This document shows positions 30,631 through 51,878 of a stretch of 64,000 nt of DNA, piece by piece. Location of the stretch: NCBI RefSeq assembly GCF_003254545.1, contig NZ_QJRH01000056.1:1-64000 (forward strand), read 5' to 3'. A program made the position numbers and the translations under genes. This stretch comes from Flavobacterium tistrianum (GTDB lineage: Bacteria > Bacteroidota > Bacteroidia > Flavobacteriales > Flavobacteriaceae). The notes under the pieces are model-generated. The model was not told where the DNA came from. It did not search any database and was given only the letters and a program-made list of their open reading frames with translations. How positions within the stretch are numbered: position 1 is the stretch's first letter; every line of letters starts with the position of its first letter.

Positions 30631-32460
30631 ATGAGTACAAATCACAACAGAATCAGAGTGGCGGACTTAGAAACAAATCAGCCAAACAAAATTTTAAAAA
30701 CAAATCAGAATGGTGAATTAGAATTTAGTGATGTAAACAATCTTCAAGAAGAAAATTATAATGCCTTAGATTGTACAACAGAAGGAAAATCTTTAGATGC
30801 CAGACAAGGGAAAGTATTGAAGGATATGATTGATAATAAAACTGTAAATCTTGCGTCTGATGCAGAAACGCAGATTAACACTGCTGTTTCTGAAGACAGT
30901 AAAGTAATTAGCCGTGCTAAGCTTTTTAATTGGTGGCAATGGATTAAATCTCAAACTCAAACTATTTCTGGAGCTTGGAATTTTACTAATAAGGTTAATT
31001 TCGCTCCAGCTACTACGACAAGCCCTTCTTTAATTATACCAAATGGCACACTAACAACCATACCTCAAAATGGAGCGATTGAACGTGATTCAAATGGTCA
31101 ATTATGGGAAACTCATGGAGGTATTAGAAGTAAAATTGGTTTTGGAAAATCTGATATTGAATTAAAAGGAGAGTTTGAAAATAATGCTCTTGCAATGGCC
31201 TCAAATTTGAAAGTTGGAGATTACTATAGCACACCTTTAGGTGGTGCTACTGGAATTTCTTTCGTTGCAGTTGTCAGAAATACTCCAGGATGTATGTATC
31301 TATCTTTTTCTGATCTAGATGAAGCTACAGCATCATTAGGCATTAATGATAAAAATAGTATTGTAGATTGGAATTCATATTTTGAATCTAAAAATTCGGC
31401 AATTTTTAAAAGCGTTCAAATTGATCATAATAGTGCTGCATTTTACGGTATCGATAACAAATTTATTACTGAAATTAGATTATCCAATACACAACTTGAA
31501 AATTTCTATATGTATGATCTGGAATACCTTACTGAACTTGACCTGTCTGATAACAATTTAACTCATTTTGACACAAGCAACCTTTCTCAAATCTTGAATG
31601 ATTTGATTTTGAGTAATAACAATATTAATGCATTCAATCTATCAAAACCGTTACCAAACTCATTAAAAAAATTATATCTCAATGGTAATCAATTAACAGA
31701 ATTTTTACCTAATTATGATCTTCCAGATTCAATTACAGACTTGAATTTAGAAGGAAATTCCATCGAATTAATCGAAGATAATGTGCACATGCCATTAAAT
31801 TTAAAAACGCTTAACCTGAACAACAATTTGTTAGGTAAATTCCAGATAGACATTCCTGAAAACTTAGAAACATTGCTTCTATCTGGGAATAAACTATCGG
31901 ATTTTGAAACCGATGCGGTTCAACACAAAAACCTTCGTTTATTAGATCTTTCAAATAATGAATATTCAAGATTTGATCCAATGTATGGTTTACCAGATGA
32001 AATTGAAGTTTTAAAATTGTCTCACAACGGAATGAGTGATTTTGACCCACAATCTTTACCAGTAAGACTAAAAAGATTAGAATTAAATGATAACAATATA
32101 GAAATTTTTGATCCTTTACATTTTGCAGAATATCTAAAGGTTTTAATGTTACAAAATAATAAGATTATCAATTTTAATCCAAAAAACTTGAATGATAATT
32201 TAAGTGAATTGATTCTTAGTAATAACAAAATTGTTAATTTCAAACCAGAATGGTTACCAAGTGAATTAGTTGTTTTAAGTCTTGAAAACAATCCTACTAC
32301 TACAACTTCATGGAACACTAATATTGATTGGTGTGAAAGTAGATATGAAAACGGAATTTTGTATGCTGGTAATACTGCGGGATCTATTAATGGAACTAAG
32401 ACAGAATCTCTTTTAAAAGAATTAAATTGGACAACTCTTAAAACTCCATATTCTCTTTAA
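30631..32460 (+). CDS. Fibre-like protein with anchor module and LRR tip
   Basis: This 609-residue protein begins with a module ([19 protein letters not shown]) also found at 49750 and 51414. A tail-fibre-like shaft follows, with the phage-type phrase GKSLDARQGKVLKDMID, to about residue 190. Residues 280-570 are leucine-rich repeats (LTELDLSDNNLTHFDTSNL), ending in a short cap. There is no signal peptide. The layout is anchor, shaft and receptor-binding tip, as in phage fibres, with an LRR tip instead of a typical lectin. It is probably part of a particle or released complex and binds a cell-surface partner. Confidence 0.75.
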   Translation: MSTNHNRIRVADLETNQPNKILKTNQNGELEFSDVNNLQEENYNALDCTTEGKSLDARQGKVLKDMIDNKTVNLASDAETQINTAVSEDSKVISRAKLFNWWQWIKSQTQTISGAWNFTNKVNFAPATTTSPSLIIPNGTLTTIPQNGAIERDSNGQLWETHGGIRSKIGFGKSDIELKGEFENNALAMASNLKVGDYYSTPLGGATGISFVAVVRNTPGCMYLSFSDLDEATASLGINDKNSIVDWNSYFESKNSAIFKSVQIDHNSAAFYGIDNKFITEIRLSNTQLENFYMYDLEYLTELDLSDNNLTHFDTSNLSQILNDLILSNNNINAFNLSKPLPNSLKKLYLNGNQLTEFLPNYDLPDSITDLNLEGNSIELIEDNVHMPLNLKTLNLNNNLLGKFQIDIPENLETLLLSGNKLSDFETDAVQHKNLRLLDLSNNEYSRFDPMYGLPDEIEVLKLSHNGMSDFDPQSLPVRLKRLELNDNNIEIFDPLHFAEYLKVLMLQNNKIINFNPKNLNDNLSELILSNNKIVNFKPEWLPSELVVLSLENNPTTTTSWNTNIDWCESRYENGILYAGNTAGSINGTKTESLLKELNWTTLKTPYSL

Positions 32461-32924
32461 AAACTTTTCTAGTTTAAAAAACTTAATCTAAAATTCTGAT
32501 TACTCATATATGTTTTAATATTATTATATGAGTAATCTTATATTATTTTTCTTCACTTTTTAAGGACACGAAAACCGAAAAAACCAAGTTTTTGGTTACT
32601 TCTTACTCTAAGCAAATTTGAAAATTTTGTCTTCTCACTTTACACATCTGTAAAGCCCCAGAACATCCATGTCAAACCACTAAGCAGCTCTTTTTTAAGC
32701 TCCATTTTTAAGCTCATCTTTACACTGTCAAAAGAAAAAAAGAGAATAAAAACCTCTTATAAACAAAGTCTTTTGAAAAAAATACTAACCGAATAAATTG
32801 TTCCAACTGCTTAGAAAAATCCCTGAAAAAATTATGCGTTTGCACCCCAAAGATTGGTTCAATCTAACTACAATTTAATCATTCTGAATACGAACAAAAT
32901 TAAAGTCAAAAACAAAATAAGAAT
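32461..32924 (+). promoter_or_regulatory. Late-type leader 3 with CTTTACA-N4-TGTAAAG element
   Basis: After the terminator at 32498-32537 the stretch contains CTAAGCAAA and CTTTACA-CATC-TGTAAAG at 32638-32655, then CCCCAGAACA. It ends with an AT-rich leader to the 2468-residue gene. GATT-N5-AATC occurs at 32852-32864. No gene is seen in this 464-base interval. Confidence 0.5.
32498..32544 (+). terminator. Terminator after the LRR fibre gene
   Basis: GATTACTCATATA pairs with TATATGAGTAATC around a 14-base loop, followed by a T-rich run. Confidence 0.75.
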
Positions 32925-35900
32925 ATGCCAACTAATCCAATTCCTGCGGTTCCAATTCCTACAGCGAGATATTATCCGAGATTGTCCGAGATAATTACTG
33001 TAGACGATTTACCAGAATTCTTATCGTTTGTCGAAGATGGTTTGAATTCCATTTTTGATAAAATTCACTACAAAAACTTACAATATTCAAAAGGATATCG
33101 TGGTGATTCTGCCTTTTATAGTCTTGATATTATATCGAGCAAAAAACTGGCTTTGCCTCTTCCTTTTGGTATGGGTTTGGTATTAAATCCAAATCTAAAA
33201 GACGATGATTCTTCTATATCATCATTTCCCATTACATTAGAATATCAGTGGGAAATTCTGGCTTTCTTAAAAACATTCAGTTCAAGCAGTTTCTCTTTTT
33301 CTATGGAGGATTTTTATGCTGTGGGTCTTCAGGTTTTCCGCATCAGCGAAGAACAGGTTATAGCCCATATGATGAATATGTTTGTTGAAGCTCAAGAAGG
33401 AAAAACAAAATACGAACAGCTTTTAGAAGATATTAATGCGCTTCAAAATACTAATCTAGAATTTCCAACAAATGTAGAACAATCTATTGGCGGTATTATT
33501 GACCTCATCAAAAACAGTGCTGTAATTACAAAATCGATTCCGCTATTACTATTCGGAACTTATATCGCTAAAGAAGGTTTTACTTTAGACGAAATCAAGC
33601 AAAAATTACAAGATTTCTACAACATTGTAGCTCCAGATGGAATCGAAGCTCACATTAAAAGAATTATTACTCCAAAGGCGAAAGCAACTTTAGCTTTAAG
33701 TGCCGGTATTGAGTTTCCTAGAAATATCTTAAAACCTGTCGAACCTAATGGTTCTAATTATGGTACTGGAACTGAAAAATCAATGTTTTTATTTGGTCAA
33801 GCGCAATTGTATGCTGATACTGAAGAAGGCATTGGCTATCAGTTAGAAATGGGAGGATCGCTTGAGCCTAAAACTGCCATGATTGGCAATACGGGTTTAC
33901 TTCTTCAATTAGACACTTTAAAAGTCGATTTAAGCAAGAAAACCAATATCCCAGAAGCCGATGCTGACGGACGCCCAAATGATTTCGTTGGAGTTTATGC
34001 TCGTGCTGTTTCTGTAACCCTTCCTTCAAAATGGTTTAATGAGATTCCTAAAACTCCAGGAAGCACAGCTCCTACATTACAAATTGGTGCTTCAGATTTG
34101 TTAATTGGTACAGGTGGGCTTTCTGGAAATATCTATCTGGAAACAGTTCCGAGTACAGATGGTGCTTTTAGTTATTTCAACGACAAATTCAATTTTAATT
34201 ATCCAATCACCATGTTCGAAAAAAACGAACAAAATGGTGTGGCCAATAAAAAAGAAATTGCTGATTATTCTTCTTTACTTGTCTTTTTGCAAGAATTGAA
34301 CAGTAAAAATTTGCCTTATGCATTTGATTATCCGTTATCGTTAACAACTATTAATGACTCGACCACTTATGTTTTTACTGATGCTAAAGATTATCAAAGC
34401 TTTCTGGCAGAACTTTACGATAATACGCTTTGGAAAACTATTGGTTCTGAGAAAAAAGGATTCAAAGTAGGCTTTAATAAATTTGATATTACTTTCAAAC
34501 AAAATAAAGTTACGAACTCTAACATTAAAGGTGCTTTAGAAATTCCGAAACTTAAAGAAAAAAATGGAGATCCATTAAAAGTTAACCTTGAAGGACACCT
34601 AAATGATGACGGAGATTTTAACCTTACTGCCTCTTTCCCAAAAGATAATAAACTAAAGGCAAATCTATTTGACCTTGTAAATATCGATTTTAACAGTTTC
34701 GAACTCGGAAAACAGGATGAAGATTACTATTTAGGAACGTCTTGTTATATTTCTTTTCCTAAAGGAACTTTAATGGGAAGTTTATTAAAAGGAAAAGGAT
34801 TTGAAGTTGAAAAACTGCGTGTATACAGCGATGGAAATATTGAAGTTGAGGGAGGGTCTATTCCTATCCCTGTTAGTCTTTCGGTTAATTTAGGTCCAGT
34901 TCAAATGGCGGTTACGAACATCAACTTTGGTTCTACCCAAATTAACGGGCGTAAATATAATTTCTGGGGATTTGATGGTGCAATCAGTATTAATCCGCTT
35001 GCGCTTGATGCCCGTGGTGAAGGGGTTAAATTTTATTACTCTACTGATCAGAACTCCGAAAACGGTCTTAAAAAAGATTCCTTTTTAAGAATACAAACTA
35101 TCGAAGTCGATTTAATCATTCCCGCAACAACTGACAAACCCGTACTGGCAATTATTAACGGAATGCTTTCGCTTCCTCAACCTGGTATTAATAAAGAGTT
35201 TGTGGGTGAAGTTTCATTAAAATTGCCAAAAGCTAAAATTTCAGGAAGTGTTGGCATGCGTTTTATGCCCAAATATCCTGCATTTTTAATTGATGCCAGT
35301 ATTGATCTTCCCGTTCCTATTCCTCTTGGATTTTTAGCCATTAATGCCTTTAGAGGTTTATTAGGATTTAGATATGTGGCCACCAAACAAGCTGTAGGAT
35401 TAACAAAAGACGATTCATGGTATAAATATTACAAACATCCGAAACCGGGTATCAATATTAAAAAATTCAGCGGGCCTCCAGACTCTATGCAGTACAATTC
35501 TCCGTTTTCTATTGGAGCTGGAGCCACTTTTGGAACAGTTGCAGATGGTGGGCATGTATTGTCGTTGAGAGCCATGCTTTTATTGTCTCTGCCTACTCTC
35601 TTTTATATTGAGGCGGGACTAAATGTTATTTCTTCAAGATTAGGATTAATTGAAGATGATCCTAGCAATCCGCCATTCTTTGCCATGGTTGCCTTTGGAG
35701 ACGATTCATTAGAATTAGCAGCTGGAGCAGATTTCAGCATTCCGAAAGACAGCGGACAAATTATAAAACTTCATGCGTTGTTAGAAGCCGGATTCTTCTT
35801 TAAGAATCAGAAGCCTTGGTATGTAAATCTGGGTTCTAAAAAAGATCCAATTACAGCAGAAGTTTTAACCTTATTTACAGCAAAATCTTTTATCATGATT

Positions 35901-38900
35901 TCTGCGCAAGGTATCGAAGCTGGAGCAAGATTAGATTTTAAATTACAGCAGAGTTTTGGTCCAGCCAAAGTTAAATTATGGGCTTACTTAGAAATGGGTG
36001 GGAAAATCTCATTCAAACGCCCTCAAATGGGTGGTTACATTAGCGCTGGTGGAGGAATCCAAATTAAACTTTGGATTATTAATGTTGAAATTGCTTTAGA
36101 CACGATATTCTCTGTAGAGTCATTTAAACCGTTCTTGATTTATGCCAAATTAGAATTAAGCGTTCGTGTAAGAATTGCCATGATTAAAGTACGTAAAAAC
36201 TTTACAGTTGAACTTCAATGGGACATTAACAGAGTTGTTGATCGTACGCCGTACAGCCCTCTTCCAAAAGGAACTGCTGGAGATGGTGAAGATAATAGAA
36301 CATTAGAAAATGTCAAAGGAGTTCATATGCTAACCAATCAAGCATTTGCTTTGGATTATTTCAAATCTGCTGGAGAAAAAGATTATGACCCAACAAAATT
36401 TGATAATCAAGGAATGCCTAAACAAGAGCTCATTACTTCAATTATTCCTTTAGATACTTATATCGACATTAAAATGGCTAAAGGACTGGTTCCTAGCACC
36501 GAATTAAATAAAAAAGTCGGAGGGTATACGGGTGAAGCTAAAAATTATACTGATATGATGCCTCCTGAAGGAACTACAAAAGCGGGTAGAAAAATACGTC
36601 AGGTTAAGCATGAATACGGAATTAAATCGATCAACTTAAAATCATGGAATGGCGCTGCATGGGTAGATTACAACCCTTTTGAAGCTGTTGTAGAAAACAA
36701 AGAAGAAACTCGTAATCAGGTAAAAGATTTGCCTTGGGCACATTGGCAGAAAGCTATTGATCAGTATGATTCTATCCGAGTATTGGCGACAAACCCGTTC
36801 TCGTTTTTAAGTGCGGCAGAACCTGGATGGCATATTCCTGAACAATTGGGAATTACATCTACAAAATTGTTCTGTGCTTCAACAGAAATTGACAAACAGC
36901 ATATGGATTTCCTTAACAAACAAATTGGAAAGCGTTACTATGTGCCTATGCAATATGAAGCTGACAAAATTAACGGATTGTTTTTTAGACTTATTGGAGA
37001 ACTTCCTTTAATTGTTGGCAACTACACTATGGAAGGCGGTGATTTTATGAGTATTACTGCTGATCAAAATAATTTTGGATACCGCAGATCTTTAGCGTTT
37101 AAAAACGAAAACGAATTAGAAATTATTTTCCCAGAATCTGCTATCGATCCTGAATTAAGGCTTACAACTCAGGCAAAAGAAGTAAAAATTACAGCTTATA
37201 CTGCCAAGTTTAATGATGGCGACAAATTAGTATCATATATGCCTGTAGGATTTAACAAAACCAAGACAGATGTATTTTCACCAGAACAAACTTATTCGAA
37301 AGCGGAATTTTCAAATGCAATAACCTTATATACTGAGGAAATTGATGGTCAGAAGAAAAAAATAGATAAAATTGTAATTAGTCCCGTTTCAGCAAATGCA
37401 AAACGTATTAAAGAAATCAGAAATGAAATTGCAGCATTATTTGACGATACATATGGCGAATTAACCGGAAATACTGAAATTACATTAACAGACCCTGTAA
37501 AGATTGCCAAATACACTTCTCTTATGGCTGAATTGGCAAATCTCAAATTGGATGCTGGTAATGAAAATCCTAATGCCGAAAGTAATCCAAATGCATTGAC
37601 TTTTACTCATTATTATGGTTATAATGGAAAAGCTTTATACGATTTTGATCAGGTAATTAAATTTAATGATTCGTACGTAATAACATTCCATCCAAAAGAG
37701 GATGCTAAAACTACTATTCTATTACAAGTCAATTCTGATGGAACTATTATCAGAGAGCGTTTAATTAGCGGAATTGTAACTTCTCTTCAGGTTGTAAATG
37801 GCAACTTAGTTGTAACCCAAGCTTTGAATGCAGAACAATGCAAAGGAATTGGAGAAGCAACAATCGATCTTGATTTTATTGTAGGATGTACCTCTCCTAT
37901 TGCTGCAACAGCAATTGTTGAAATGGATGAAGAACTAAATCCGATTCTAGGAACGCAATATTTGAATACTTACTCTTTAGGCTATAACAAAGTTCTGCCA
38001 TTAGCCAATAATGATCTTCTTTGGATTAATACATTATCCAATGAAACTCAAATGAGCTGGATAAAAGGAAGTGACCGAACTGTGATGTATCGTTCTAAAG
38101 TTAACGGAGAAGCAGTTAAAGTTCTACAGCATAATGAGAATGAATTTAGTTTAATTACTAAGGATAAAAAAGTTATTCATTTAAGCGTCAACAATGTATC
38201 AAAAGTAATTTCTGTAACGGATACAAAAGTAATTCCTACAAATGAAATAGTTGAAATTGTCGATGCCATAATTGCGAATAATAAGACGTTGCTTTCAGTA
38301 AAACTATCGAATGGTAAATATGCTTTTGCGCAAATTGATGGAAACACTATTGTCTTGGTAAAAAACGACACCATTTTTGATTCGTCAATTTATTTGTCAA
38401 ATCAAACCTTAAATGATCATTCAATTATCGCATACAATACACATTATCTGTTTGTTTTTAATGAAGCTCTAACACAAGCAAGATTAATTAAAAGAGAAAC
38501 AAATGTTGCTGATGCTTCAATCATTCAAATTCAAAACGAACCGTCTGTAAATGAAATCTTGATGCTTTCTAGCAAACCAAAAGAAAAGGGCGTTTATTTT
38601 TCATTGTTTAGCGATGCGTTTAATAACTGTTCTTTACATTCTGCTGAGCAAGTTTCTGTTACTTCATCGACAGCTGTTTTGACAAATGGAAGTGTCAATT
38701 ATACAATATTGGATTTAATCAACGGATTAGATTTTAGAAGAAGTATTAAAAAATCAAACATAATTACAACTGATGCTGTTATTTGTTCAAATCTAGAGAA
38801 TTCTGAAGATCCAGAACTTGATTACTCCACTTATATTCAACGTATAGACTGGTTTAGCAAAGAAGAGTATTATCATAATAAAACGATTTTGGATATTCCT

Positions 38901-40331: not shown

Positions 40332-40346
40332 AAAAATAAGAAAAAA

Positions 40347-43300: not shown

Positions 43301-46178
43301 AATATCGGTTAAAGATGCAGAAACCGATAAGAATTCTATTTTTCCTGATACTGAAGAAATACTTGCAGATCATTTTAAACTGTACTACAAAGACGGACTT
43401 CCGGAAGTTGAATATGGTGAAATTGAAATTATTGACAACGATACTGTCAATAACCTTACTGCAATTGTAAAAATAAGAGAGTATAAAATTATCAGTAGTG
43501 GCCAGGAGATTAAAATTGGATTAGATCATGCTAATAAAACAAGATTTGCTGGGGGAATTTTGACTATTGGAGATCAAAATTATATCATTCAAAATATCGA
43601 AGTCACACTTAAAAAAGATGCAAATTCTAATGATGTTTTTGATTATGCTCTAATTGAAGTACTGAAAAAAGAAGTAACCGACAAACTTCATGCTGATGGA
43701 GATGCAACAATCGATTCGGAACAAATTCTAGACATTAAATATCCTGAAAGCAGATTATGTACACTGGTGCAAAACATGCAGACCATTTCTAATTGGCACC
43801 AGCCTCAAATTGATTTTACAGTTCAATATCCTGAAAGCTTAAATGCTATTCATCGTGAAGTTATAGATCACACCAATGAAAACGGAGAGAACCTGCAAGT
43901 CGAAAAAACAAGAGGGGTTTGGGAGAATGCTGTAATTGAAAGAGTTTTTGAGGACTCATATGAAATGGATGGAAAAGGAGAGTATAAACTGGATGAAGAA
44001 GGTAATCTGATTCCGTTGAATACTGAAAGAAAACATTTAGGTTTATATAAAATTATTTTCAGAAACTTTAGTTTACCTCAGCATACTCAATTTAAATCTG
44101 AGAAAGAAAACTCTGTAGAATGGTCAAATGGTATTGTGAGATTGTTTACAAAAAGCGCTTTTAAAGAAGGAAATCCTGTCCCAGTAAAATCGAGAAAAGA
44201 GTTTAAAGTTTATAAAACTGAGAACATCGGTACAACAGGAAATCTAGCCTTATATATTGATGATCCTGATTTTAAACTTGGTGATTACGCCACACAAACA
44301 ATGGCTGAGGACTATGATGAAATTTTAGGCGCAGAAGATGGCCCTCGCATAAAAAATGGCTCGTCAAGTTACCCTAATGATTATGTGTCTCAGTGTGTTA
44401 ACTACTATCCTAGTTACAAGGTTTATTTGTATGCAGATCCTGTTTCGGGAATTACAAAAGAAAATATTCAGCCAAGAGAAAATGAAAGTACGCACTACTC
44501 TAGTTTCGGAATCAGCACACATTCAAAGCCAGCTATCTGTTACAAATCAAAAATTAGCATTCCTTGTCCAATGTATGCGGTCAAAGTTGAAAAGACTGAA
44601 AAGCCCGAAGAGATCATTGGAGGTAGTTTGTATGCAACTCGACCAGATTTTTACAATCGTTCGACTTTCACTTTTACGACTAAATATAATGAAGAGCGAA
44701 AACCTTATGGACTATTGCATTACAGAGCTAATGATGAAGATTTGCTGAATGTTTTATACAAGCCAACAACTGTAAGTACAATTCGTGAAGAATTGAACAA
44801 ATTGGGAGGAAATGATGAAATTGATTTCAACAGACGATGGGTGGACTTTTTAAATTTTAATGAGCTTACCATAAGAGGCCAATATGACGTTTTTCCAAAA
44901 AATGAATCTGAAGAAAATTATCAGTTTCCAATGCCTGACAATGATGAATTAATAGAACTAATCAATGACTTTATCAAATGGCATAATCAAACACAAGATA
45001 CAGATGAGGAAACAATAACTTCTATTACATCATTAAATAAGGTTTTAATTTCAAAAAAAGTTAAAGAACCAATGTTAGCTGTTTATTTTATTGAACAAGC
45101 CATTTATAATGCCTTTGTTCCTTTAACGGAAGTGCCTGTTATTTATGAATACATTAAAGGCAATAACTATAAGCCTGTTAATAAAAAACAAACCATTAAA
45201 GATAAAAATGGAAATGCTTTAAAACCAACCGATGCTGATTTTGATATTGCTCCAATGATGAAAGTTGTAAATGAGAGCCAAAACAGAGTACAATTTACCG
45301 ATTTTAATCTAGATGGAAACTCTCAAAACATCTATTTCTACGCTGTTCGCGAAATGGACATTAAGATGAATTTTGGAGAATTCAGTGATGTTTTAGGACC
45401 TGTAAAACTAGTAGCTTCTACTCCACCTAAAACTCCCGAAATTAAAAGAATTATGCCAATTCTTGAAAATGAAGTATTAGGAATTAAGCCTGCTGTTCAG
45501 ATTGAATTAAATGCGTATCAGCCAGAATATAAAATCAGAAAAATTAATGTCTATCGCGCTACAACAATGCTTGATGCTCAGTCTATCAGAACGATGAAAC
45601 TAGCTAAAGAAATTGTAATTGATGAAGATACTTTATCTGCAGATTTTGAAAATGTCTGGACGGTTTATGATGATTTAGAAGATTTGGAAGAAGTTCCATT
45701 TGGAGATGGTCTTTTCTATAGAATTACGGTTTCCAAACAAATTGAGTATGCAGATCCAGAATCGACAACAGAAAATCCAATTATAAATACTGATTATGCA
45801 CCATCTCAGCCATCAAAAATTACAGCAACGGTTATTGTTGATAGTGTTTCACCTGAGTCTCCTCTTTTAGAAGTAACAGCAACTCCAACAGGAACAAATG
45901 GAGAAATCTTAAAACCTGTTGTTTTCAACTGGAATAAAAAAGTATACAATGGAAAATATCATTTGTATAAAATGAATAGTCAAGGTAGCTGGGAGAAAAT
46001 TGATGAAATTTCAACAAATCTCGAAAATCCTGCCTTACCGCTTATGCAGACAAAATTAAAGACAGATGAATTGATTATCAAAAATGAAAATGGAAATAGA
46101 ATCTACCATCATTTTAAAGTAATCTCAGAAAACTCATCTGGAATGTTAAGCAGTGATGAAAAAATCCTAACTCTTTAA
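40347..46178 (+). CDS. Giant vWA-domain protein, 1943 aa
   Basis: Residues about 15-200 form a von Willebrand A domain with the MIDAS pattern DESGS (Asp23, Ser25, Ser27) and the later Asp in VVTDG (near residue 124). An Ig-like segment follows (about 220-320), then a long region without recognised domains (LDSTKGIHLRWMLNGKLG). The last 250 residues contain fibronectin-like strands (IRKINVYRATTM, PVVFNWNKKVYNGKYHLYKM). There is no signal peptide. vWA domains often mediate metal-dependent protein binding. The gene is coupled to the 2468-residue gene and precedes a tail-fibre gene by about 90 bases. It may be a large adhesin or structural part of the same complex. Confidence 0.75.
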   Translation: MSSINLQESQLSGCATYVAIVVDESGSINGNEAQQIRDGLTSFINSQAQSNITLSLIGMSNSDTAVRPDNVIQKKISSNSQDFIDWIDLYGLGNESIQSDYWASGLNVAKNLSVTPDIVFVVTDGLQVNNSEFLKNLFTELNLSSKVFVYGVTSSFDTIEELATPLTNFLGRTPILKNDQTSALDSDYIRVPDFSTLGIELNRLATNLSDLQIGCFPSVSVIDDNLVYPALRKGIRISKPCGTLILKNKSRVPLTLSGGTKIHKEKNLNGLIFKLDNSVTIQGKSEVEVPIRIEGKAVSLGHFSSLVSLGNIFNPLGIKIDFNVGRESSIIDISSEKTNLQSSYLQIAAAGSRGLDSTKGIHLRWMLNGKLGENHLPKGNLYTGQNSNSSFNKTDDFVKVYRAPYTKISQMVDLTQSPNVVDNKKALWIYKTANPQRSVYVNFKDDKKYKAIKISIDPLTNPVAFMQAYGNALIEIETKTDLFFAAELDFSSSNTSKSVKLETLSVAENKITAAKNVSIRKTYTSAQLNNKIRVVAENGRSIRFKANYCLLNSIQFEFYSDFITNANTNGDWILKGKYGLATDDFKVFEQLEPKLNAVHGKWLKYNDGEYVNIKNYKAKWNRPTVANDITDENIKDIVLEYIELSKSGNPKAEKEITFGDRIPINDPKDGEVQQYADNLTEISYLDILNIAANDYHVARMLGLGCLDLDDEVYNGEYVYLTEYTTFGSLEDGIEGKEMQHLSMSVPTSVDTERMPLPVQLSKIVPGLNVDSDENPNNRITDPEGYSFDGKKRFVSLFMDDVMDYDTVNPNSKNDFFKSSLEYDGSTFTFPVYLGIDHKIASETTWKNPELSHDVEYNSVNQNLKESEFETVPINIPESGKSVLNAIQEKTGENTYIYQGYGINIFSRAASGRQISIKSDIKPANNLMPPSNMNALLVTEENPLLFTSQSEQQLLGKIAGADKTLVRIMFDYYSAQELLSYPVPKEISVKDAETDKNSIFPDTEEILADHFKLYYKDGLPEVEYGEIEIIDNDTVNNLTAIVKIREYKIISSGQEIKIGLDHANKTRFAGGILTIGDQNYIIQNIEVTLKKDANSNDVFDYALIEVLKKEVTDKLHADGDATIDSEQILDIKYPESRLCTLVQNMQTISNWHQPQIDFTVQYPESLNAIHREVIDHTNENGENLQVEKTRGVWENAVIERVFEDSYEMDGKGEYKLDEEGNLIPLNTERKHLGLYKIIFRNFSLPQHTQFKSEKENSVEWSNGIVRLFTKSAFKEGNPVPVKSRKEFKVYKTENIGTTGNLALYIDDPDFKLGDYATQTMAEDYDEILGAEDGPRIKNGSSSYPNDYVSQCVNYYPSYKVYLYADPVSGITKENIQPRENESTHYSSFGISTHSKPAICYKSKISIPCPMYAVKVEKTEKPEEIIGGSLYATRPDFYNRSTFTFTTKYNEERKPYGLLHYRANDEDLLNVLYKPTTVSTIREELNKLGGNDEIDFNRRWVDFLNFNELTIRGQYDVFPKNESEENYQFPMPDNDELIELINDFIKWHNQTQDTDEETITSITSLNKVLISKKVKEPMLAVYFIEQAIYNAFVPLTEVPVIYEYIKGNNYKPVNKKQTIKDKNGNALKPTDADFDIAPMMKVVNESQNRVQFTDFNLDGNSQNIYFYAVREMDIKMNFGEFSDVLGPVKLVASTPPKTPEIKRIMPILENEVLGIKPAVQIELNAYQPEYKIRKINVYRATTMLDAQSIRTMKLAKEIVIDEDTLSADFENVWTVYDDLEDLEEVPFGDGLFYRITVSKQIEYADPESTTENPIINTDYAPSQPSKITATVIVDSVSPESPLLEVTATPTGTNGEILKPVVFNWNKKVYNGKYHLYKMNSQGSWEKIDEISTNLENPALPLMQTKLKTDELIIKNENGNRIYHHFKVISENSSGMLSSDEKILTL

Positions 46179-46265
46179 AATTAATAAATACCAATGAATC
46201 AAATCGTTGGTATTTATTTCAGGCTAATTAAAACATTTAAAAGCAAAGAAATAAAACTAAATAAA

Positions 46266-47423
46266 ATGGCAACACTTAGAAACGACTTTTACAACAAATT
46301 CAAAGATGGAGATATTCCATCACACCTTGACTTCGTAGAAATTTTTGACAATTTTGTTCACGGAAATGATGACAAGGCCGATTTACAAATGGTCGAGAAA
46401 GGAACAGATAATCAGCATTATATCACTCCAGCACTTTTAAAAGCAGCATTTCAAAATGCTGGAATTATTGCCGGTAATTGTTATATTCCCTTCAAAGAAT
46501 TTCAGGATAACTTTTCAGGATCATCAATTCAACTGGATTCTTCTCCCATTGCAGACAGTGCCAAAGTCTATAAAAACGGACAACTATTAAAAGAAATTGA
46601 TGATTATAATCTAAACTACGATAGTGGTGTACTAACTTTTACTGATCCAATAATTAGTCGAAATATTGAAATAAATTATTGGTCTAAAAATTCAGATACT
46701 GACTCTGAGGAAAGTGGCTCTAATCCAATTCTTGGAAGTTTATCTATTCCTTATAAAGAAAATTTTGACGAGGATACTTTCACTAATGACAAAATCACTT
46801 TAAAAGAAATCCCTGTAAAAGATAGCATCAGAATCTATAAAAATGGCCAACTACTTAGAGAAGGTCAAGGCAAAGATTATGCTGTGGATTACAACAATGG
46901 TATTATTACATTTTCGGCAGTAATAAGCAACCGTAACATCGAAGTCGATTATTGGTACAAAAGCACTGTTACTTTATCTGATTTGGAATTAAACACTAAA
47001 TATGTCGATTTAACTACAGCTCAAACCATTGGCGGAAATAAAACTTTTACAGAAACAGTTGAAGGTAAAAGCTTTATTAAAACAGGCGGAACTTCAAGTC
47101 AGTTTTTAATGGCAGATGGCTCCGTTTCTACCTCTCCTGGCTCTGATTATGATGCTGGACACTCTATTGGCGTAATTCCTTTTACTGGCGGTTATCAAAA
47201 ATTCAGCAACGGATTAATACTACAATGGGCTCATTTAATGAGTAATGCTAATACATACACTTTCCCTTTAACCTGGCCACATGGTGCTTTGAGTGTTATG
47301 GTATCAACTATAAGAACAAATTCAGGAAGCAGAGGATACAATCACGTAGCTAATGTTACACAGAGCACTTATTATGCCCTTATCGATGCCAACGAAGGCT
47401 ACATGTTCGCAATTGGATATTAA
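46266..47423 (+). CDS. Phage-type tail fibre protein
   Basis: The frame is open from 46194, but I choose the ATG at 46266 (MATLRNDFYNKF) because the preceding codons overlap the leader and look non-coding; this gives 385 residues. Two internal repeats of about 75 residues (YKNGQLLKEIDDYNLNYDSG and YKNGQLLREGQGKDYAVDYN) form the middle. A phage-fibre shaft TTAQTIGGNKTFTETVEGK follows. The last 90 residues (KFSNGLILQWAHL, FPLTWPHGALSVMV) match the gp53-like fibre C-terminus. A tail-fibre chaperone gene follows at once. It is probably the receptor-binding fibre of the complex. Confidence 0.82.
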   Translation: MATLRNDFYNKFKDGDIPSHLDFVEIFDNFVHGNDDKADLQMVEKGTDNQHYITPALLKAAFQNAGIIAGNCYIPFKEFQDNFSGSSIQLDSSPIADSAKVYKNGQLLKEIDDYNLNYDSGVLTFTDPIISRNIEINYWSKNSDTDSEESGSNPILGSLSIPYKENFDEDTFTNDKITLKEIPVKDSIRIYKNGQLLREGQGKDYAVDYNNGIITFSAVISNRNIEVDYWYKSTVTLSDLELNTKYVDLTTAQTIGGNKTFTETVEGKSFIKTGGTSSQFLMADGSVSTSPGSDYDAGHSIGVIPFTGGYQKFSNGLILQWAHLMSNANTYTFPLTWPHGALSVMVSTIRTNSGSRGYNHVANVTQSTYYALIDANEGYMFAIGY

Positions 47424-47447
47424 CCATAAACTAAAAAAATTAAAATT

Positions 47448-47816
47448 ATGTATAAAGCAACATATAACGAAAACGGAGAATATACAGGTTTTTATGTTAA
47501 AGAAATTCACGAAAACATTCCTCAACCTAATATTGAGTTAACTGAAGAAGAATGGCAGCAAGCGTTGTCAAAAAAATATAAAGTAATTGAAGGCAAACAT
47601 GCTTTTTCTCCTTTTGTCCAAAACAAAGAAGATCTTTTAGCAAGCTTAAGAATTACTAGAAATGGACTATTAGCTGAAAGTGATTGGACCCAAGTAGAAG
47701 ACTCACCTCTTTCTGATGAAAAAAAAGAAGCTTGGAAGAATTACAGACAGGAGTTAAGAGATTTAACCGATTTAGAAGATACAGCAACAATTGTTTGGCC
47801 GGTAAGCCCTATGTAA
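47448..47816 (+). CDS. Tail-fibre assembly chaperone (Phage_tail_APC-like)
   Basis: This 122-residue cytoplasmic protein ends with the signature RNGLLAESDWTQVEDSPLSD and KEAWKNYRQELRDLTD, then VWPVSPM, typical of phage tail assembly chaperones of the APC/DUF4376-like group. Such proteins help trimeric fibres fold and attach. It follows the tail fibre gene by 24 bases, the usual fibre-chaperone order. This supports a real fibre function for the upstream gene. Confidence 0.82.
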   Translation: MYKATYNENGEYTGFYVKEIHENIPQPNIELTEEEWQQALSKKYKVIEGKHAFSPFVQNKEDLLASLRITRNGLLAESDWTQVEDSPLSDEKKEAWKNYRQELRDLTDLEDTATIVWPVSPM

Positions 47817-47880
47817 TGAATACTCAATTATGACTCTTCAATGAGCGCAAAATCAAATAATTATTATTTATTAAAAAAAT

Positions 47881-48741
47881 ATGGAAGAAAACTCAACATA
47901 CAAACCTTTTGCTTATATAGCCCAATATGTTCCTGAAGAAGGAACATTGGTTTACTATAATTCTGAAAAGACTTTAGCTGTAAAAAAGAATGATTGCTCC
48001 TATGGGACATCTGGAAACCTAGTTACTTTAACATCTCCTGCTAATAAATTTATTTCAACTATAAGTGTCGCAGATGCAGACCAACAAGCAGAATCTTGGT
48101 TAAACTCAAATGCGCAAGCTTATGCAAATAATATTGGAACTTGCACTATTAGAGCTACTGCATGGCGAGGAGAAAATCCTTCTTGTGTATTAGAACCAAC
48201 TACAACATTATCACCATTCGATTACATGATCATTAAATACAAATGGGCATTTGGTGCAGGTACTGACCTAGATACTTTTACAGGTTTTGTAAATACTGGC
48301 ATCAATACTTTAGACAATAAATGGGTCGGATTTGGACTTGGTAGTGAAGTTCCTGCAAGTGCTTTGGCTCAAAATTCTTATGTAATGTGGGGTGGGGATG
48401 AAACGGATAAAACTGGTGTTGAAACCTGTCTTATAAATTTCAAAAAAATAAAAGAGGATTACTCTACTTTAAATGACATCCAAGTAAGAATGGCTGGGGT
48501 CTGGTGGGATTCAAAAAACACTGGAAACATCGATGTAGAAATCACAACCTACCTTGGTGGAACTATGGAGAAAGCAGGCAAGGACATTGTAAATAACAAC
48601 GGACAGCAAGTTCAACAGTTGAATTTTTCAAAAAATGTCTCAATACAAGGAAAGCGCTTAACTATAGACCAAGTTAGCAATATTGGCTACATTAATTATT
48701 CTAGCAACCTCTCAACTGCAAATGTTGTAATAAATTATTAA
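47881..48741 (+). CDS. DUF5977 protein, 286 aa
   Basis: Residues about 25-95 match DUF5977: a Cys pair, then the phrases LTSPANKFISTISVADADQQ and AYANNIGTC. The remaining 190 residues are beta-rich with many Trp and Gly (FVNTGINTLDNKWVGFGLG) and look like a lectin or jelly-roll fold. DUF5977 is found in Bacteroidota surface and phage-fibre-like proteins and usually occurs as a small repeat; its role is unknown. No signal peptide. It ends 4 bases before a second DUF5977 gene, so the pair is a tandem set of alternative tips. Confidence 0.72.
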   Translation: MEENSTYKPFAYIAQYVPEEGTLVYYNSEKTLAVKKNDCSYGTSGNLVTLTSPANKFISTISVADADQQAESWLNSNAQAYANNIGTCTIRATAWRGENPSCVLEPTTTLSPFDYMIIKYKWAFGAGTDLDTFTGFVNTGINTLDNKWVGFGLGSEVPASALAQNSYVMWGGDETDKTGVETCLINFKKIKEDYSTLNDIQVRMAGVWWDSKNTGNIDVEITTYLGGTMEKAGKDIVNNNGQQVQQLNFSKNVSIQGKRLTIDQVSNIGYINYSSNLSTANVVINY

Positions 48742-48745
48742 AAAT

Positions 48746-49663
48746 ATGGGAAATACAGGATATAAATTTTATGAAACATTAGAGCGCTATTATACAGATG
48801 ATGGCACTTCAACAGGAGACACAAAACCAAATGTAAAAACAGATCCAGATTATATTGCTCCATTTAAAGATGAAGTAGAGTGTCCGCCAAGTGCTCGTTT
48901 CTATAATACCATACAAACTAAGACTGCAACTAGAAACAATTGTGGGGCTGGATATTTAGGTAGTGATGTCATACTTACAGCTTATCCAAATCAGTTTGTC
49001 TCAAGCGAAAGTGTATTAGACGCAAATAATCAAGCAATTGCTTGGTTAGATGCTAATGCACATATTTATGCTAATAATATGGGAACATGCATACTTGATA
49101 CAATTCCTCCAAGTGCTAGTGTTTTAACGGCATCTTCAATCACTTCAAATTCATTAAAATTATCTTGGACTGCTGCGACGGACAATCTAGGGATTGTTGG
49201 TTATGAAATATACCAAAATAACGTTTTTTTAACCTCAACTACAACCAGTATTCTTCAGTACGATGTAACAGGATTAGCTTCAAACACAAGTTATAATTTT
49301 TATGTTAAAGCAAAAGACACTGCTGGAAATTCATCTACATCTAATACAATAACTGCAACTATAAATGCAGCGGCAGCAGATACAACTGCGCCAACAGTAC
49401 CTGCTAATTTCTGGTGTGTTCCTGTTGGTTCAGATAATGTGCATCTTGAATGGACTCCTTCAGAAGATGAGAATAGTCCCATAAACTATGAGCTTTCCCG
49501 TGGCTTCTACGGTTCTTTTGTAGTTTTGAAAACAAATCCGGACACTTTTTATAGTGATAAAGTTTTATCGAACGGAACATACACCTACAGACTTCGCGCA
49601 ATAGACCCTAGTGGCAACGCATCTACTTATAAGGAGGTCTCTATAACCATAAATTCCTTATAA
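48746..49663 (+). CDS. DUF5977 plus two fibronectin III domains
   Basis: This 305-residue protein begins with a short collagen-like-free linker, then DUF5977 at about residues 50-115 (NNCGAGYLGSDVILTAYPNQ). Two fibronectin type III domains follow at about 125-215 (SITSNSLKLSWTAATDNLGI) and 217-303 (DNVHLEWTPSEDENSPINYE). FN3 domains act as spacers or carbohydrate-facing modules in secreted bacterial proteins. No signal peptide is seen. It shares the DUF5977 module with the gene just upstream but has a different distal part, again pointing to modular tip exchange. Confidence 0.8.
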   Translation: MGNTGYKFYETLERYYTDDGTSTGDTKPNVKTDPDYIAPFKDEVECPPSARFYNTIQTKTATRNNCGAGYLGSDVILTAYPNQFVSSESVLDANNQAIAWLDANAHIYANNMGTCILDTIPPSASVLTASSITSNSLKLSWTAATDNLGIVGYEIYQNNVFLTSTTTSILQYDVTGLASNTSYNFYVKAKDTAGNSSTSNTITATINAAAADTTAPTVPANFWCVPVGSDNVHLEWTPSEDENSPINYELSRGFYGSFVVLKTNPDTFYSDKVLSNGTYTYRLRAIDPSGNASTYKEVSITINSL

Positions 49664-49676
49664 AATTGCATCAACT

Positions 49677-49712
49677 AATAATCTTTGGGGCATAAAACCC
49701 CAAAAGATTATT
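49677..49712 (+). terminator. Terminator after the FN3 gene
   Basis: AATAATCTTTGGGG and CCCCAAAAGATTATT pair around CATAAAA, followed by T residues. It separates the DUF5977 pair from the next anchor gene. Confidence 0.85.
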
Positions 49713-49749
49713 TCCCTTCCGAAAAAAAATAATAAAAAATACCACAAAA

Positions 49750-50325
49750 ATGAGCACAAATCACAACAGAATAAAAGTTTCTGATTTGGAAACAAATCAG
49801 AAAAATAAAATTTTAATTACAAACTCTAACGGTGAATTGGAGTTTGGTGATATAGCTTCAACATTAGATTTTAAAACAGTCAATGGAGAATCAATTCTTG
49901 GAAATGGTGATATTGACTTATCTAACAAAGTTGATAAAATTGAGGGTGAACGCTTAATCACCGCTACAGAAATAGCAAAGCTTGAAAGGATTGAAGATGG
50001 CGCGCAGGTAAATCAGGACATTAGTGGCAAACAGGATTTAAATAATCAAATTTTCGTTAGTGCATCTGGATTGGTTCAGGACTCTTGGCATGGTAAACTA
50101 GTTATCTTCACTGCTAATGTAACTATAACTGTTCCGCCAACCGGATTAAGAACTGGTTTCAATTTTGAAGGCATCGTGGATCCATCTTTTACAATAAACA
50201 CTGTAATAATGGCACCTAAGGGATGGTATGGGACATATACTGGAAATCCAATTCCTTCAGATAGTATTTTTTCTTTTGTCCAAAGAGCTAATGATAGTAA
50301 TAAAATTTCAATTTATGGATTATGA
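49750..50325 (+). CDS. Anchor-module protein A, fibre-like
   Basis: This 191-residue protein starts with the same anchor as the LRR fibre at 30631 (NHNRIKVSDLETNQKNKIL). A phage-fibre phrase follows ([20 protein letters not shown]) and a C-terminal beta domain of about 80 residues (SWHGKLVIFTANVTITVP) also found in the paralogue at 51414. The stop overlaps the start of the next gene by 4 bases. I infer that it mounts the following LRR-like protein on a common scaffold. Confidence 0.75.
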   Translation: MSTNHNRIKVSDLETNQKNKILITNSNGELEFGDIASTLDFKTVNGESILGNGDIDLSNKVDKIEGERLITATEIAKLERIEDGAQVNQDISGKQDLNNQIFVSASGLVQDSWHGKLVIFTANVTITVPPTGLRTGFNFEGIVDPSFTINTVIMAPKGWYGTYTGNPIPSDSIFSFVQRANDSNKISIYGL

Positions 50326-51314
50326 GACAAAGAAAAACGATTTTTTCTCGTAAACGAAGCTATTATCTCTACTTCAAAACAAAATCAAATACTCCCATTT
50401 TTACAATATATTTACCTATAATGTCAGCAAGCTCAGTACGGGTTAAACTTATAGGCTTATCATCAAATTTGGTTTATTATGAGGGATTGCAAACTGACAC
50501 ACAAAGTTTTAATTTAGAAAACAATACCATTTCTGAAGAAATTGGCTACTACCTATCTGTAAAAGATTTACTAACAACTTATATAAATCTGCCAGGTAAA
50601 AATATCACAATGATAAATTTATCTAGAATTAGAGGAACTTGGAGTTCAGTTTGCGATTTAAGCAATAATGATATTAGAACATGCATTTGGAAAGAAAAAC
50701 AACTTCTAACAAATACAGTTGGATATAACTTTTCTGGGAATTCAAATTTTACCAGTGATTTACTTCCTAATGATACTCAGTCAACAAATAAGTTTAAGGT
50801 ATTAAATGTTGTTGGAACCAAAGTGACAGATATTAATTTTTTACTGACTGCTTTCCAAAATTTAACTGAACTGTATATAGGAAATCCTCTTGATAAATTT
50901 GAATTTCTTTTTCCTATTACACATACAAAACTTTCAAGATTTGCAATTAAACAAGTAAAAACTAACATTAATAATTTAATGCTAATAAATTGTCCCATGC
51001 TAACATACTTAGAAATATATGAAATTGACATCTCAATTATTACAATTGATAATTGTCCTTTATTAGAAAACCTTAATGCATGGAATAATCGAGGAATGCT
51101 AAATATTAATAGAACTGGCACATCTAAGTTTAAAAATGTTAACATAGGGCTTAACAGCTTCACCTCAATAATCAAAGATAAAATCATAAATTATTGCATT
51201 GATGACGGAATATTAAATGGAAATCTCGCAATTGGAAAAACTCCTAATCCTCCAAACAATAATTCAGGTCTTTCAGTTTTACAATCAAGAGGCTGGACTG
51301 GGACTTCATTTTAA
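50322..51314 (+). CDS. LRR-like adhesin coupled to anchor A
   Basis: This 330-residue protein has no signal peptide. Its middle, about residues 90-290, is built from irregular leucine-rich repeats (NKFKVLNVVGTKVTDINFLL, MLTYLEIYEIDISIITIDNC). The N-terminal 85 residues are basic then beta-rich. It ends with a Trp-Thr-Gly segment (LSVLQSRGWTGTSF) resembling the ends of Bacteroidota phage-like repeat proteins. Its start overlaps the stop of anchor A by 4 bases, so the two are made in equal amounts. It is likely the binding tip of that pair. Confidence 0.7.
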   Translation: MRQRKTIFSRKRSYYLYFKTKSNTPIFTIYLPIMSASSVRVKLIGLSSNLVYYEGLQTDTQSFNLENNTISEEIGYYLSVKDLLTTYINLPGKNITMINLSRIRGTWSSVCDLSNNDIRTCIWKEKQLLTNTVGYNFSGNSNFTSDLLPNDTQSTNKFKVLNVVGTKVTDINFLLTAFQNLTELYIGNPLDKFEFLFPITHTKLSRFAIKQVKTNINNLMLINCPMLTYLEIYEIDISIITIDNCPLLENLNAWNNRGMLNINRTGTSKFKNVNIGLNSFTSIIKDKIINYCIDDGILNGNLAIGKTPNPPNNNSGLSVLQSRGWTGTSF

Positions 51315-51413
51315 TACCATAAAATAGATTATTATAGTAAACTGTGCTGTAAGCCTGTTCATCCATAATAAAAAAAAAAACACTTTTACACTTTTTAGAT
51401 AAAAAATACGAAA

Positions 51414-51878
51414 ATGGATACAAACCACAACAGAATAAAAGTCGCTGATCTAGAAACAAATCAAAGCGATAAAATTTTAATAACAAACTCCAGTGGTACA
51501 CTGGAGTTTAGTGATATAACATCTGCTTTAGATTTTAAAACAATTAATGGAGAATCAATTCTTGGAAACGGAGATATCGACTTATCAAATAAGCAGGATG
51601 TTTCGAACCAACTAGAAATCGGTTCAAGCCAAACCATTCCGTCTAACTGGCATGGCAAAACTGTACTTTTTACAGCCAACTGTACAATTACAGTTCCTGC
51701 TTCATTGCCACAAAGTTTCATTTTTAACGGGATTACATTGCCAGGAGTAATTGTAACTTGGGTTATTACAGCACCCCATACATGGCTTTTTGGAACTCCA
51801 TCTGTAACAGCCGAAAAACAGATTTTTACTTTTACAAAAAGGGGAGCAACAAATAGCATTTTATTATTAGGAGTATAA
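51414..51878 (+). CDS. Anchor-module protein B, fibre-like
   Basis: This 154-residue paralogue of anchor A has the shared N-terminus ([19 protein letters not shown]), the phrase [19 protein letters not shown], and the C-terminal beta domain ([18 protein letters not shown]). A segment of about 37 residues between these parts in anchor A is missing here. It precedes the DUF285 repeat gene by two bases and probably carries it in the same way. No signal peptide is present. Confidence 0.75.

Follow-up and report, generated by a model that had tools for sequence, protein, structure and literature searches.

A conserved 41-residue N-terminal peptide as the putative docking end of proposed plug-in fibres in a Flavobacterium island

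Several receptor-binding proteins are carried on one hub in the phages CBA120 (TSP1-4; Ackermannviridae) and T4 (gp10-gp9). Tailspike genes are described as exchangeable among relatives in the part of PMC11414711 available to us, and the available part of PMC8825819 presents XD1 as a likely spacer and XD2 and XD3 as binders. Large toxin complexes released by a lysis cassette are known from Yersinia entomophaga (Yen-Tc; available part of PMC10101115). The island considered here lies in a 64,000-nucleotide stretch of Flavobacterium tistrianum DNA (contig NZ_QJRH01000056.1; hereafter the window). It is conserved in many Flavobacterium species and apparently undescribed, contains giant proteins without named relatives, and may encode a tail-less delivery particle. 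Titles and opening parts of abstracts, with subscription journals and preprints largely outside the scope of the search, held no description of the island or of the plug introduced below. We propose that a module shared by three of its proteins serves as the docking end, particular to this island, of a fibre family made of anchor, phage-type adaptor and plug-in tip, which would be mounted on a giant-protein particle and released by lysis; we give this reading a probability of about two in three.

Table 1. Features of the island in the window (positions in the 64,000-nucleotide stretch)
Feature	Position	Strand	Basis or remark
S24/CI-like repressor	17217..17900	-	Pfam Peptidase_S24 1.9e-11; PHROG repressor 1.6e-17
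DUF3164 protein (phrog_846, phage family)	18624..19340	+	Pfam 6.8e-8; PHROG 1.4e-28
Small protein, N-terminal TM and coil, holin-/spanin-like	20643..20930	+	weak PHROG Rz-like 0.043; hydropathy
CHAP endolysin	20927..21379	+	Pfam CHAP 2.8e-14; PHROG endolysin 1.6e-15
Unimolecular-spanin-like protein	21408..21908	+	lipobox-like N-terminus, C-terminal TM (hydropathy, inspection)
F02, conserved protein, 733 aa	21934..24135	+	clustered in 22/23 islands
605-aa protein	24132..25949	+	sits where other islands carry variable-C-terminus protein
ORF 1, 609 aa, one-piece fibre with anchor copy 1	30631..32460	+	anchor, phage-fibre repeat, LRR tip (Pfam)
Anchor module copy 1 (41 aa)	30631..30753	+	DNA pattern, BLASTP
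Giant protein 1, 2468 aa	32925..40331	+	clustered in 22/23 islands
Giant protein 2, 1943 aa	40347..46178	+	23/23 islands
Primary fibre, different N-terminus, gp53-like C-terminus	46194..47423	+	Gp53-like_C 9e-9; PHROG tail fibre 9.7e-12
Tail-fibre assembly chaperone	47448..47816	+	Phage_tail_APC 1.5e-18; PHROG tail fibre assembly 1.5e-17
DUF5977 protein, candidate docking partner	47881..48741	+	Pfam 1.7e-21
DUF5977 and fn3 protein, candidate docking partner	48746..49663	+	Pfam 5.7e-17 and 1.2e-13
ORF 2, 191 aa, with anchor copy 2	49750..50325	+	
Anchor module copy 2	49750..49872	+	DNA pattern, BLASTP
XD1-like adaptor domain (predicted), 191-aa protein	50023..50322	+	aligned to modelled 154-aa homologue
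Separate tip, 330 aa	50322..51314	+	start overlaps anchor stop; plug MRQRKTIFSRKRS
ORF 3, 154 aa, with anchor copy 3	51414..51878	+	
Anchor module copy 3	51414..51536	+	DNA pattern, BLASTP
XD1-like adaptor domain (predicted), residues 55-154 of 154-aa protein	51576..51875	+	predicted model, structure comparison
Separate tip, DUF285, with plug	51881..53515	+	Pfam 1.6e-119

The preliminary description of this DNA had placed a common N-terminal module at 30631, 49750 and 51414, and three ORFs with homologous N-termini indeed lie there. Searching the whole genome with a degenerate DNA pattern that encodes NHNRI(K/R)V gives exactly three matches, all at these positions, and the reversed pattern gives none. 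The 30631 and 49750 proteins have 28 of their 35 N-terminal residues in common (BLASTP, E 2e-15), the 49750 and 51414 proteins are 46% identical over their full length (E 2e-49), and the 30631 protein matches both by its N-terminus only. The stretch first described, NHNRI(K/R)V(A/S)DLETNQ, is present but too short, as the module extends over about 41 residues. Fusion of the first protein to an LRR tip also holds (Pfam LRR_8 2.2e-17, LRR_4 2.8e-17): the tip occupies about residues 295-558, and a phage-fibre repeat, below the Pfam cut-off, residues 46-70. The other two anchors are separate genes followed at once by another, which begins within the last codons of the anchor gene in one case and 2 bp past its stop in the other. 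The latter encodes the expected DUF285 protein; the former, previously called LRR-like, shows no LRR in Pfam. Pfam and PHROGs yielded nothing useful for the short anchors themselves, which also have a C-terminal domain in common, spanning roughly residues 55-154 in the 154-aa protein.

Structure prediction gives this domain the XD1 fold seen in T4 gp9/gp10 and CBA120 TSP4. The model of the 154-aa protein forms a single well-folded domain (block mean pLDDT 84-94 over residues 71-150) and matches the Pa223 capsid spike with Z 12.7 and gp9, T4 and KP1 baseplate chains and TSP4 with Z 8.4-9.6 over 85-99 residues (8.4-8.7 for CBA120 TSP4, T4 baseplate chain 5iv5_AC and gp9). The rmsd values of 2.2-3.3 come from a single-chain predicted model and speak to fold only; on TSP4 the matches fall on residues 79-180, where XD1 lies, and on the T4 chain on positions 37-150. 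Non-phage entries with a similar fold include the chaperone-substrate complex 6o38 (Z 7.6) and StcE (4dny, Z 6.2). The suggested likeness to branched phage fibres gains an adaptor with a predicted XD1 fold and loses some ground in that XD1 is probably a spacer (PMC8825819, available part).

The preliminary description also proposed a search of other genomes for the module and the parts attached to it. Among 249 genomes of the genus it occurs in 20. In all, it stands at the start of 122 unique proteins; 94 anchored ORFs are spread over 37 of 72 named loci, some strains being present in both genome sets. Giant protein 1 is found in all 20 module genomes and in 12 of the remaining 229 (Fisher 1.4e-21), and in the genus sample the strict module is confined to giant-bearing genomes. 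What stands behind the anchor turns over fast, with a counterpart for only 7 of 82 remainders in islands whose giant protein is 85-90% identical. Exchangeable parts behind a constant end, as first claimed, are therefore well supported. The accompanying claim of one common docking site is suggested by conservation of the anchor, and the tips may bind receptors. As for a partner, the DUF5977 family is present in 57 of 57 anchor-bearing loci and 2 of 38 others, a distribution shared by both window genes; this correlation may merely mark lineage.

The gene after an adaptor opens with a plug of 10-13 residues, behind which the tip body varies. Of 58 classified pairs, 57 have a plug of the same type as the adaptor end upstream, with classes defined after the first pairs had been inspected, and the remaining pair fits by eye. 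The 61 unique pairs divide into the first type (28/28), second (10/10), third (11/12), S74 ends (8/8) and three unclassed. The four classes do not cover the window pair 49750/50322; its plug is closest by eye to the second, and a homologue of its tip body (class B5) stands behind a second-type plug in another genome. A tip gene starts no more than 10 bp after an XD1-like end in 40 of 43 cases, against 10 of 78 for other ends. The three exceptions are L128, where a plug-like start remains in a broken frame, L135, where a search for a tip start after the adaptor found none, and G136, with no next gene after the adaptor. Outside islands, a tip gene follows each of the nine adaptor copies found, at a distance of -1 to +3 bp, and eight of these tips carry the plug FG. 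The anchor profile matches none of these nine fibres even at E 10 (the start of L212 lies outside the available stretch). One of them, L209, begins with MAEYNTIRVGELP, which looks slightly anchor-like; it was rejected as an anchor on the same profile result.

Because adaptor type matches the tip N-terminus and the same pairing recurs outside islands, docking of separate-gene tips on the anchor protein is supported, if indirectly. Another possibility follows from the adjacency of adaptor and plug codons: linkage alone could keep the pair together, if recombination breakpoints lie a few codons into the tip gene and adaptor end and plug travel as one without ever touching. Homologous recombination would be expected to break near a conserved stretch, and the gap between the genes ranges from -4 to +7 bp, with 41 of 61 pairs at +2. 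We nevertheless consider this explanation unlikely, given that breaks recur behind the plug and not where the gene starts, and that each of three body classes combines with at least two named plug types (DUF285 with the first 14 times and the third 9 times; B1 with the first 8 times and the second 6 times; B4 with the three named types once, three times and once). The recurrence in nine of nine outside loci, in several sequence variants and on fibres free of an anchor-profile match, points the same way. The presence of the same adaptor-tip pairs in viral contigs speaks against a further view, that the anchored proteins and their tips are bacterial cell-surface adhesins. DUF285/BspA-type and LRR proteins frequently are adhesins. 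DUF5977 appears once in the available part of a fibrillar adhesin survey (PMC8286594). Yet the window's anchored proteins and tips are free of signal peptides by a simple rule, and among 57 anchored proteins scanned 30 contain phage-fibre repeats and four a Peptidase_S74 chaperone, which makes an adhesin role extremely improbable.

What, then, would the fibres be mounted on? Neither Pfam nor PHROG recognised a head, tube, sheath or baseplate gene among the island proteins, a lack that the preliminary description, as with the adaptor-plug layer, had not noticed. For the window, a PHROG scan covering 26 island proteins, but not transposases and some small ORFs, returned fibre, chaperone, repressor and lysis families and no head, portal, terminase or tube; head, virion and major-tail labels on the 46194 and 48746 proteins fall on shaft, tip and fn3-like parts. 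Since a sheath match occurs elsewhere in 13 of the 20 island genomes (six above the family cut-off), the fibres could serve another machine, namely a contractile injection system encoded elsewhere. Baseplate J matches in 10 of 20 (nine above cut-off) would fit, as would those of the window genome, where two matches to sheath and one to J all stay under the cut-offs. We regard this as quite unlikely: all matches lie outside the stretches taken as islands, no sheath is matched at E 0.001 in seven of the 20 genomes, and the strict module, within the genus sample, keeps to giant-bearing genomes and its pattern, in the window genome, to the island. A decayed prophage with leftover fibres would account for the surviving repressor, DUF3164, lysis and fibre genes in the absence of recognised virion parts, for the copies of an IS200-like transposase (27056 and 28613), for the broken tip gene of L128 and for the giant 1 of G113, which matches over residues 1-1040 only. 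Against this, gene order is kept in about 20 islands, giant 1 is 63-90% identical to the window copy in the 15 islands aligned, relatives of giant 2 occur in other genera, and frames of 2468 and 1943 residues would hardly survive decay; this reading is very unlikely.

We return to fibres on a particle of the island's own. The constant anchor would bind one conserved island component. The 30631 type would be a long one-piece shaft carrying its own tip, and the 49750 and 51414 type a short phage-type adaptor, presumably a trimer, with the XD1-like domain at its end; a separate tip would fit this adaptor by its plug. Tips may change through recombination behind the plug or through replacement of everything behind the anchor, and swapping tips could probably shift the target. 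If so, a few plug residues matched to adaptor type would amount to a testable code for tip attachment in the island and related phage fibres, and tips would be recognisable wherever the plug occurs. The fibres would be carried by a particle or complex that has the two giant proteins as its base. It would be made in the cytoplasm, since the structural proteins, fibres included, lack a clear signal peptide, and freed by the lysis genes under the phage-type repressor, a family present in 17 of 23 islands. The CHAP endolysin also matches a tail-lysozyme family (PHROG 6.6e-7); the 21408 protein has hydropathy peaks at residues 8 and 138 and weak PHROG matches only. A cargo slot in other islands would hold variable-C-terminus, toxin-like proteins, and the purpose may be antibacterial. 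Only tentatively, at somewhat less than even odds, do we extend this to an undescribed, phage-derived, lysis-released Bacteroidota toxin particle in which the two giants replace tube, sheath and baseplate and several specificities are borne on plug-in fibres through the 41-residue peptide.

The giants themselves offer few names. PDB profile searches gave nothing convincing for either, nor for F02, which also has no named homologue in Pfam or PHROG. Giant 2 has an N-terminal VWA match below the Pfam cut-off, and more distant loci keep about residues 335-1943. By the simple rule, no clear signal peptide was found on the island structural proteins; the hydrophobic stretch at residues 13-22 of giant 2 scores 2.08, against 2.56 and 3.40 for SusC controls, and is read as the VWA core. 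The giant 1 model is poor (pLDDT 69.6, pTM 0.37); residues 744-1098 match porin-like barrels with Z 12-13, but the rmsd of 11-13 and the weak model lead us not to claim a barrel. A DUF6603 assignment was likewise dropped, the match being below the family cut-off; the literature searched held no mention of DUF6603. The 154-aa anchor and both giants had no match in a phage collection of 50,697 records. In IMG/VR, giant 2 was found in one contig, and for the C-terminal part of the adaptor 115 pattern matches came down to two confirmed loci, none of them with the N-terminal anchor. Among the distant loci L163-L195, a narrow motif marks phage-type fibre N-termini in 2 of 33; by inspection they also occur in G009, G118 and G130, with several copies in the last.

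Among described systems, polymorphic toxins (PMC3482391, available part) may resemble the variable-C-terminus proteins of other islands, whose common N-termini lead into diverging C-termini in 8-9 of 11 aligned rows (alignment A5), with a weak EndoU match (0.0017) in one of 11, a deaminase match below cut-off (0.067) in one, and small ORFs behind. They differ in that Pfam names no carrier domain in the common N-terminal part. The window's 605-aa protein does not match this family, and no immunity family was found for the window's small ORFs. As in Yen-Tc, large proteins without clear signal peptides adjoin phage lysis genes; unlike in Yen-Tc, the giants' profiles find no convincing PDB chain and Pfam names no Tc-type family. 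With CBA120 and T4 the island would share the arrangement of several receptor-binding proteins on one hub; in the predicted model it shares the XD1 fold. It differs in that the model shows an XD1-like domain only, at the C-terminus, and in presenting many proteins with one N-terminal anchor and tips that would attach by a short plug where no baseplate is recognised. Also comparable are the outside fibre-tip pairs (L005, L014, L209, L210, L212 and four more). These lack an anchor-profile match, and by inspection L005, L014, L029 and L210 have a phage-type N-terminus, L210 together with contractile-tail-like genes. They share with the island the same adaptor and a plug-first tip within 3 bp, in several cases with island-like tip bodies (DUF285-like, LamG-like or NTFIGG, labelled by inspection).

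The three open reading frames that the preliminary description had grouped by a shared N-terminal module are present at 30631, 49750 and 51414, and a degenerate pattern for the module (about 41 residues) matches the 5.07-Mb genome at these three sites only, the reversed pattern giving no match at all. Their kinship was borne out: 28 of 35 N-terminal residues are identical between 30631 and 49750, and 51414 is homologous to 49750 over its full length (46% identity by sequence comparison), both ending in a second common domain, the adaptor. In 30631 the module is followed by a phage-fibre repeat (under the Pfam cut-off) and then by the leucine-rich repeat (LRR) tip, which Pfam identifies as proposed. 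The other two tips had been described as separate genes, one LRR-like and one DUF285. The DUF285 gene indeed follows 51414 at 51881 (Pfam 1.6e-119); a separate gene with an overlapping start, 50322, likewise succeeds 49750 at once, but Pfam found no LRR in it.

An island spanning some 36 kb (17.2-53.5 kb) houses the anchored genes. Scans with PHROG and Pfam recognised neither portal nor terminase, tube, sheath or baseplate genes in it; where 46194 (the primary fibre) and 48746 received a ‘virion structural’ or ‘major tail’ label, the match covers their shaft, tip and fn3-like parts. The endolysin additionally has a tail-lysozyme family match (6.6e-7). Judged by simple hydropathy, no island structural protein has a clear signal peptide, giant 2 coming nearest with 2.08 vs 2.56 and 3.40 for two SusC controls. 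In one other genome (G099, loci L089-L091) the genes for the repressor and DUF3164 are placed at the island's far end, in opposite orientation.

Features of the island in the window and of the corresponding slot in other islands
Feature	Coordinates	Remarks
S24/CI-like repressor and DUF3164 protein		in the island
Lysis-type genes		holin/spanin-like protein, CHAP endolysin, protein with lipobox-like start and C-terminal TM
733-aa protein and 605-aa protein	24132-25949 (605-aa protein)	between lysis genes and one-piece anchored fibre
IS200-like (Y1) transposase genes	27056-27472; 28613-29161	nearly identical, first shortened, around small ORFs
Giant 1 (2468 aa), then giant 2 (1943 aa)	32925-40331; 40347-46178	behind one-piece anchored fibre
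Primary fibre and tail-fibre chaperone, two DUF5977 proteins, then both anchor-tip pairs		behind giant 2
Variable-C-terminus or subtilase slot proteins	L095:15649-18960; L119:1274-4042; L104:4841-7849; others	other islands

The strict module, defined by at least one match that begins at residue 1 and runs over residue 37 or beyond (a rule that excludes G102, matched at 27% from residue 3 on, as well as genomes matched only further in), occurs in 20 of 249 same-genus genomes. All 20 carry giant 1, vs 12 of the 229 others with at least a partial match (Fisher 1.4e-21). The stretches of 22 islands and the window hold 61 anchored ORFs, spread over 20 of these 23; none was found in G009, G118 and G130, which have divergent giants and shorter stretches. 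Several fibre genes of the divergent G130 island (L121) start with a phage-type N-terminus (MAIQLRNILKGFFNTGDRPTE...); sets of multiple fibres thus also occur with a different anchor.

The best 80 of 162 confirmed giant-2 matches gave 72 named loci, from many Flavobacterium (including F. johnsoniae CI04, F. defluvii and F. anhuiense), from Kordia, Mesonia, Salegentibacter, Chryseobacterium, Kaistella, Epilithonimonas and others, and from one Saprospiraceae and one Ignavibacteria bin. Within these 72 loci, 94 anchored ORFs occur in 37, all titled Flavobacterium or Flavobacteriaceae. In L163-L195 (six titled Flavobacterium) giant 2 matches only from residue ~219-340 onward; approximately residues 335-1943 are kept, and the VWA-bearing N-terminus has no match. 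On one Epilithonimonas contig giant 2 is present twice (L191, L192), and in L190 and L192 genes like that of the 733-aa protein are located downstream of it. Across the phylum, giant 2 was matched (E 0.001) in 9 of 395 genomes, three of them in the VWA part only; an ORF of the window's own genome (G000:C32:2515-2931) also matches only this N-terminal part. The genus sample and the named loci share some strains, and anchored proteins and pairs are from here on counted as unique sequences.

Following the module into other genomes, as the preliminary description had proposed, gave at least 122 unique anchored proteins over the two sets together. Among 57 scanned (56 non-redundant of the 94 anchored ORFs, plus 30631), 30 have phage-fibre repeats, four Peptidase_S74, two YadA_head and one LRR, this being 30631 itself. 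The first 34 residues have a median identity of 76% over 1759 between-genome pairs. Behind residue 75, comparison of islands with 85-90% identity in giant 1 found a counterpart for 7 of 82 anchored proteins (>120 aa, both directions).

A second level of exchange is suggested by the separate tips, whose first residues, the plug, fall into types among 61 unique pairs (gap -4 to +7 bp, primary and anchored fibres pooled). The first type of adaptor end pairs with MGxLLQNTIFG (28/28), the second, EKQIFTFMQNEGQHSIMILG, with MGLRKTIFG (10/10), the third, TTDYLRISN, with NPLLFYEYG (11/12, the twelfth being NPLLHYEYG, which fits by eye), and S74-chaperone ends with MALPxSGxISLxDI (8/8); three pairs are unclassed, including the window's 49750/50322. 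Tip bodies are not bound to one plug type: DUF285 bodies occur with the first (14), third (9) and by-eye (1) plugs, NTFIGG bodies with the first (8), second (6) and another (1), and bodies of class B4 with the first, second and third (1, 3 and 1). The exception is class B2, where body and plug are inseparable because it occurs only with the S74 type (8/8). A tip gene follows 40 of 43 unique anchored proteins with an XD1-like end vs 10 of 78 others, one locus-edge case being left out. One tip gene is broken shortly past its plug (L128:22563-22612), and in L135 the adaptor has no tip start after it (behind 24575).

The pairing extends beyond the islands. A separate search of 15 loci found the adaptor domain in ten, one being an island gene (G136) without a next gene; of the other nine, three come from viral contigs and six from genomes that lack a giant-1 match. 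All nine have a tip gene beginning at -1 to +3 bp, with FG in the plug of eight (L028 is the exception), and the anchor profile does not match these nine fibres even at E 10, the start of L212 lying outside its stretch. The best match to the 49750 domain outside the window's genome (L005, 65%) combines an N-terminus of phage type with a tip start, MLLTKTIFGRSK, close to the window's MRQRKTIFSRKRS. In IMG/VR, the first plug type alone retrieved one locus, L212, whose upstream gene has the matching adaptor-type end; the second retrieved L213, the contig of L210.

The adaptor fold was approached with the 154-aa protein of 51414, modelled from a 24-sequence alignment (overall pLDDT 78; block means of 84-94 for residues 71-150). 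Structures matched by its residues 55-154 are the C-terminus of the Pa223 capsid spike (Z 12.7), two Klebsiella phage KP1 baseplate chains (9.6, 9.1), CBA120 TSP4 residues 79-180 (8.7), a T4 baseplate chain at 37-150 (8.5), which going by its length we take to be gp10, and T4 gp9 66-167 (8.4). Two non-phage entries rank below the phage matches (Z 7.6, 6.2). BFVD returned 680 matches; the best 50 include tail and fibre proteins along with many whose names say little. PMC8825819 also agrees with the gp10 assignment, and describes the matched TSP4 and gp9 ranges as XD1, a likely spacer.

To what does the anchor dock? All 57 anchor-bearing loci encode DUF5977 proteins (profiles F08, F12 and F19, with matches to one another), vs 2 of 38 others; the stretches of these two, L140 and L141, end ~10 kb behind giant 2, and in G207, which looks like L141's strain, anchored genes reach past such an end. 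This co-distribution, which may itself be phylogenetic signal, would make either the DUF5977 proteins or the version of the giants found in this lineage the likely partner. That the fibres instead serve a contractile machine encoded elsewhere in the genome seems quite improbable: sheath matches occur in 13 of 20 island genomes (six over the cut-off) and baseplate J matches in ten (nine over it), but seven of the 20 have no sheath match. The window's genome has sheath-like matches on two other contigs, at G000:C71:262682-263041 and G000:C10:43958-52551; one of the two has a baseplate J match nearby, and all these matches are under the cut-offs.

In other islands, the slot behind the 733-aa protein is occupied by proteins that share their N-terminal part but have exchanged C-termini, small ORFs lying behind; one of 11 has a weak EndoU match, another a weaker deaminase match and a third a subtilase. 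The window's 605-aa slot protein does not match this variable-C-terminus family. Residues 1-1200 of giant 1 gave a poor model, with long strands only loosely barrel-like. We infer that the product may be a toxin particle released by lysis, a reading that stays conjectural because the slot matches are weak and the giant-1 model is poor. Phage receptor-binding proteins that are modular and sit on an XD-type hub have been described before (PMC8825819, PMC11414711); new, as far as searches of open-access literature show, are the 41-residue anchor common to at least 122 proteins, the matching of adaptor and plug, and the island itself.
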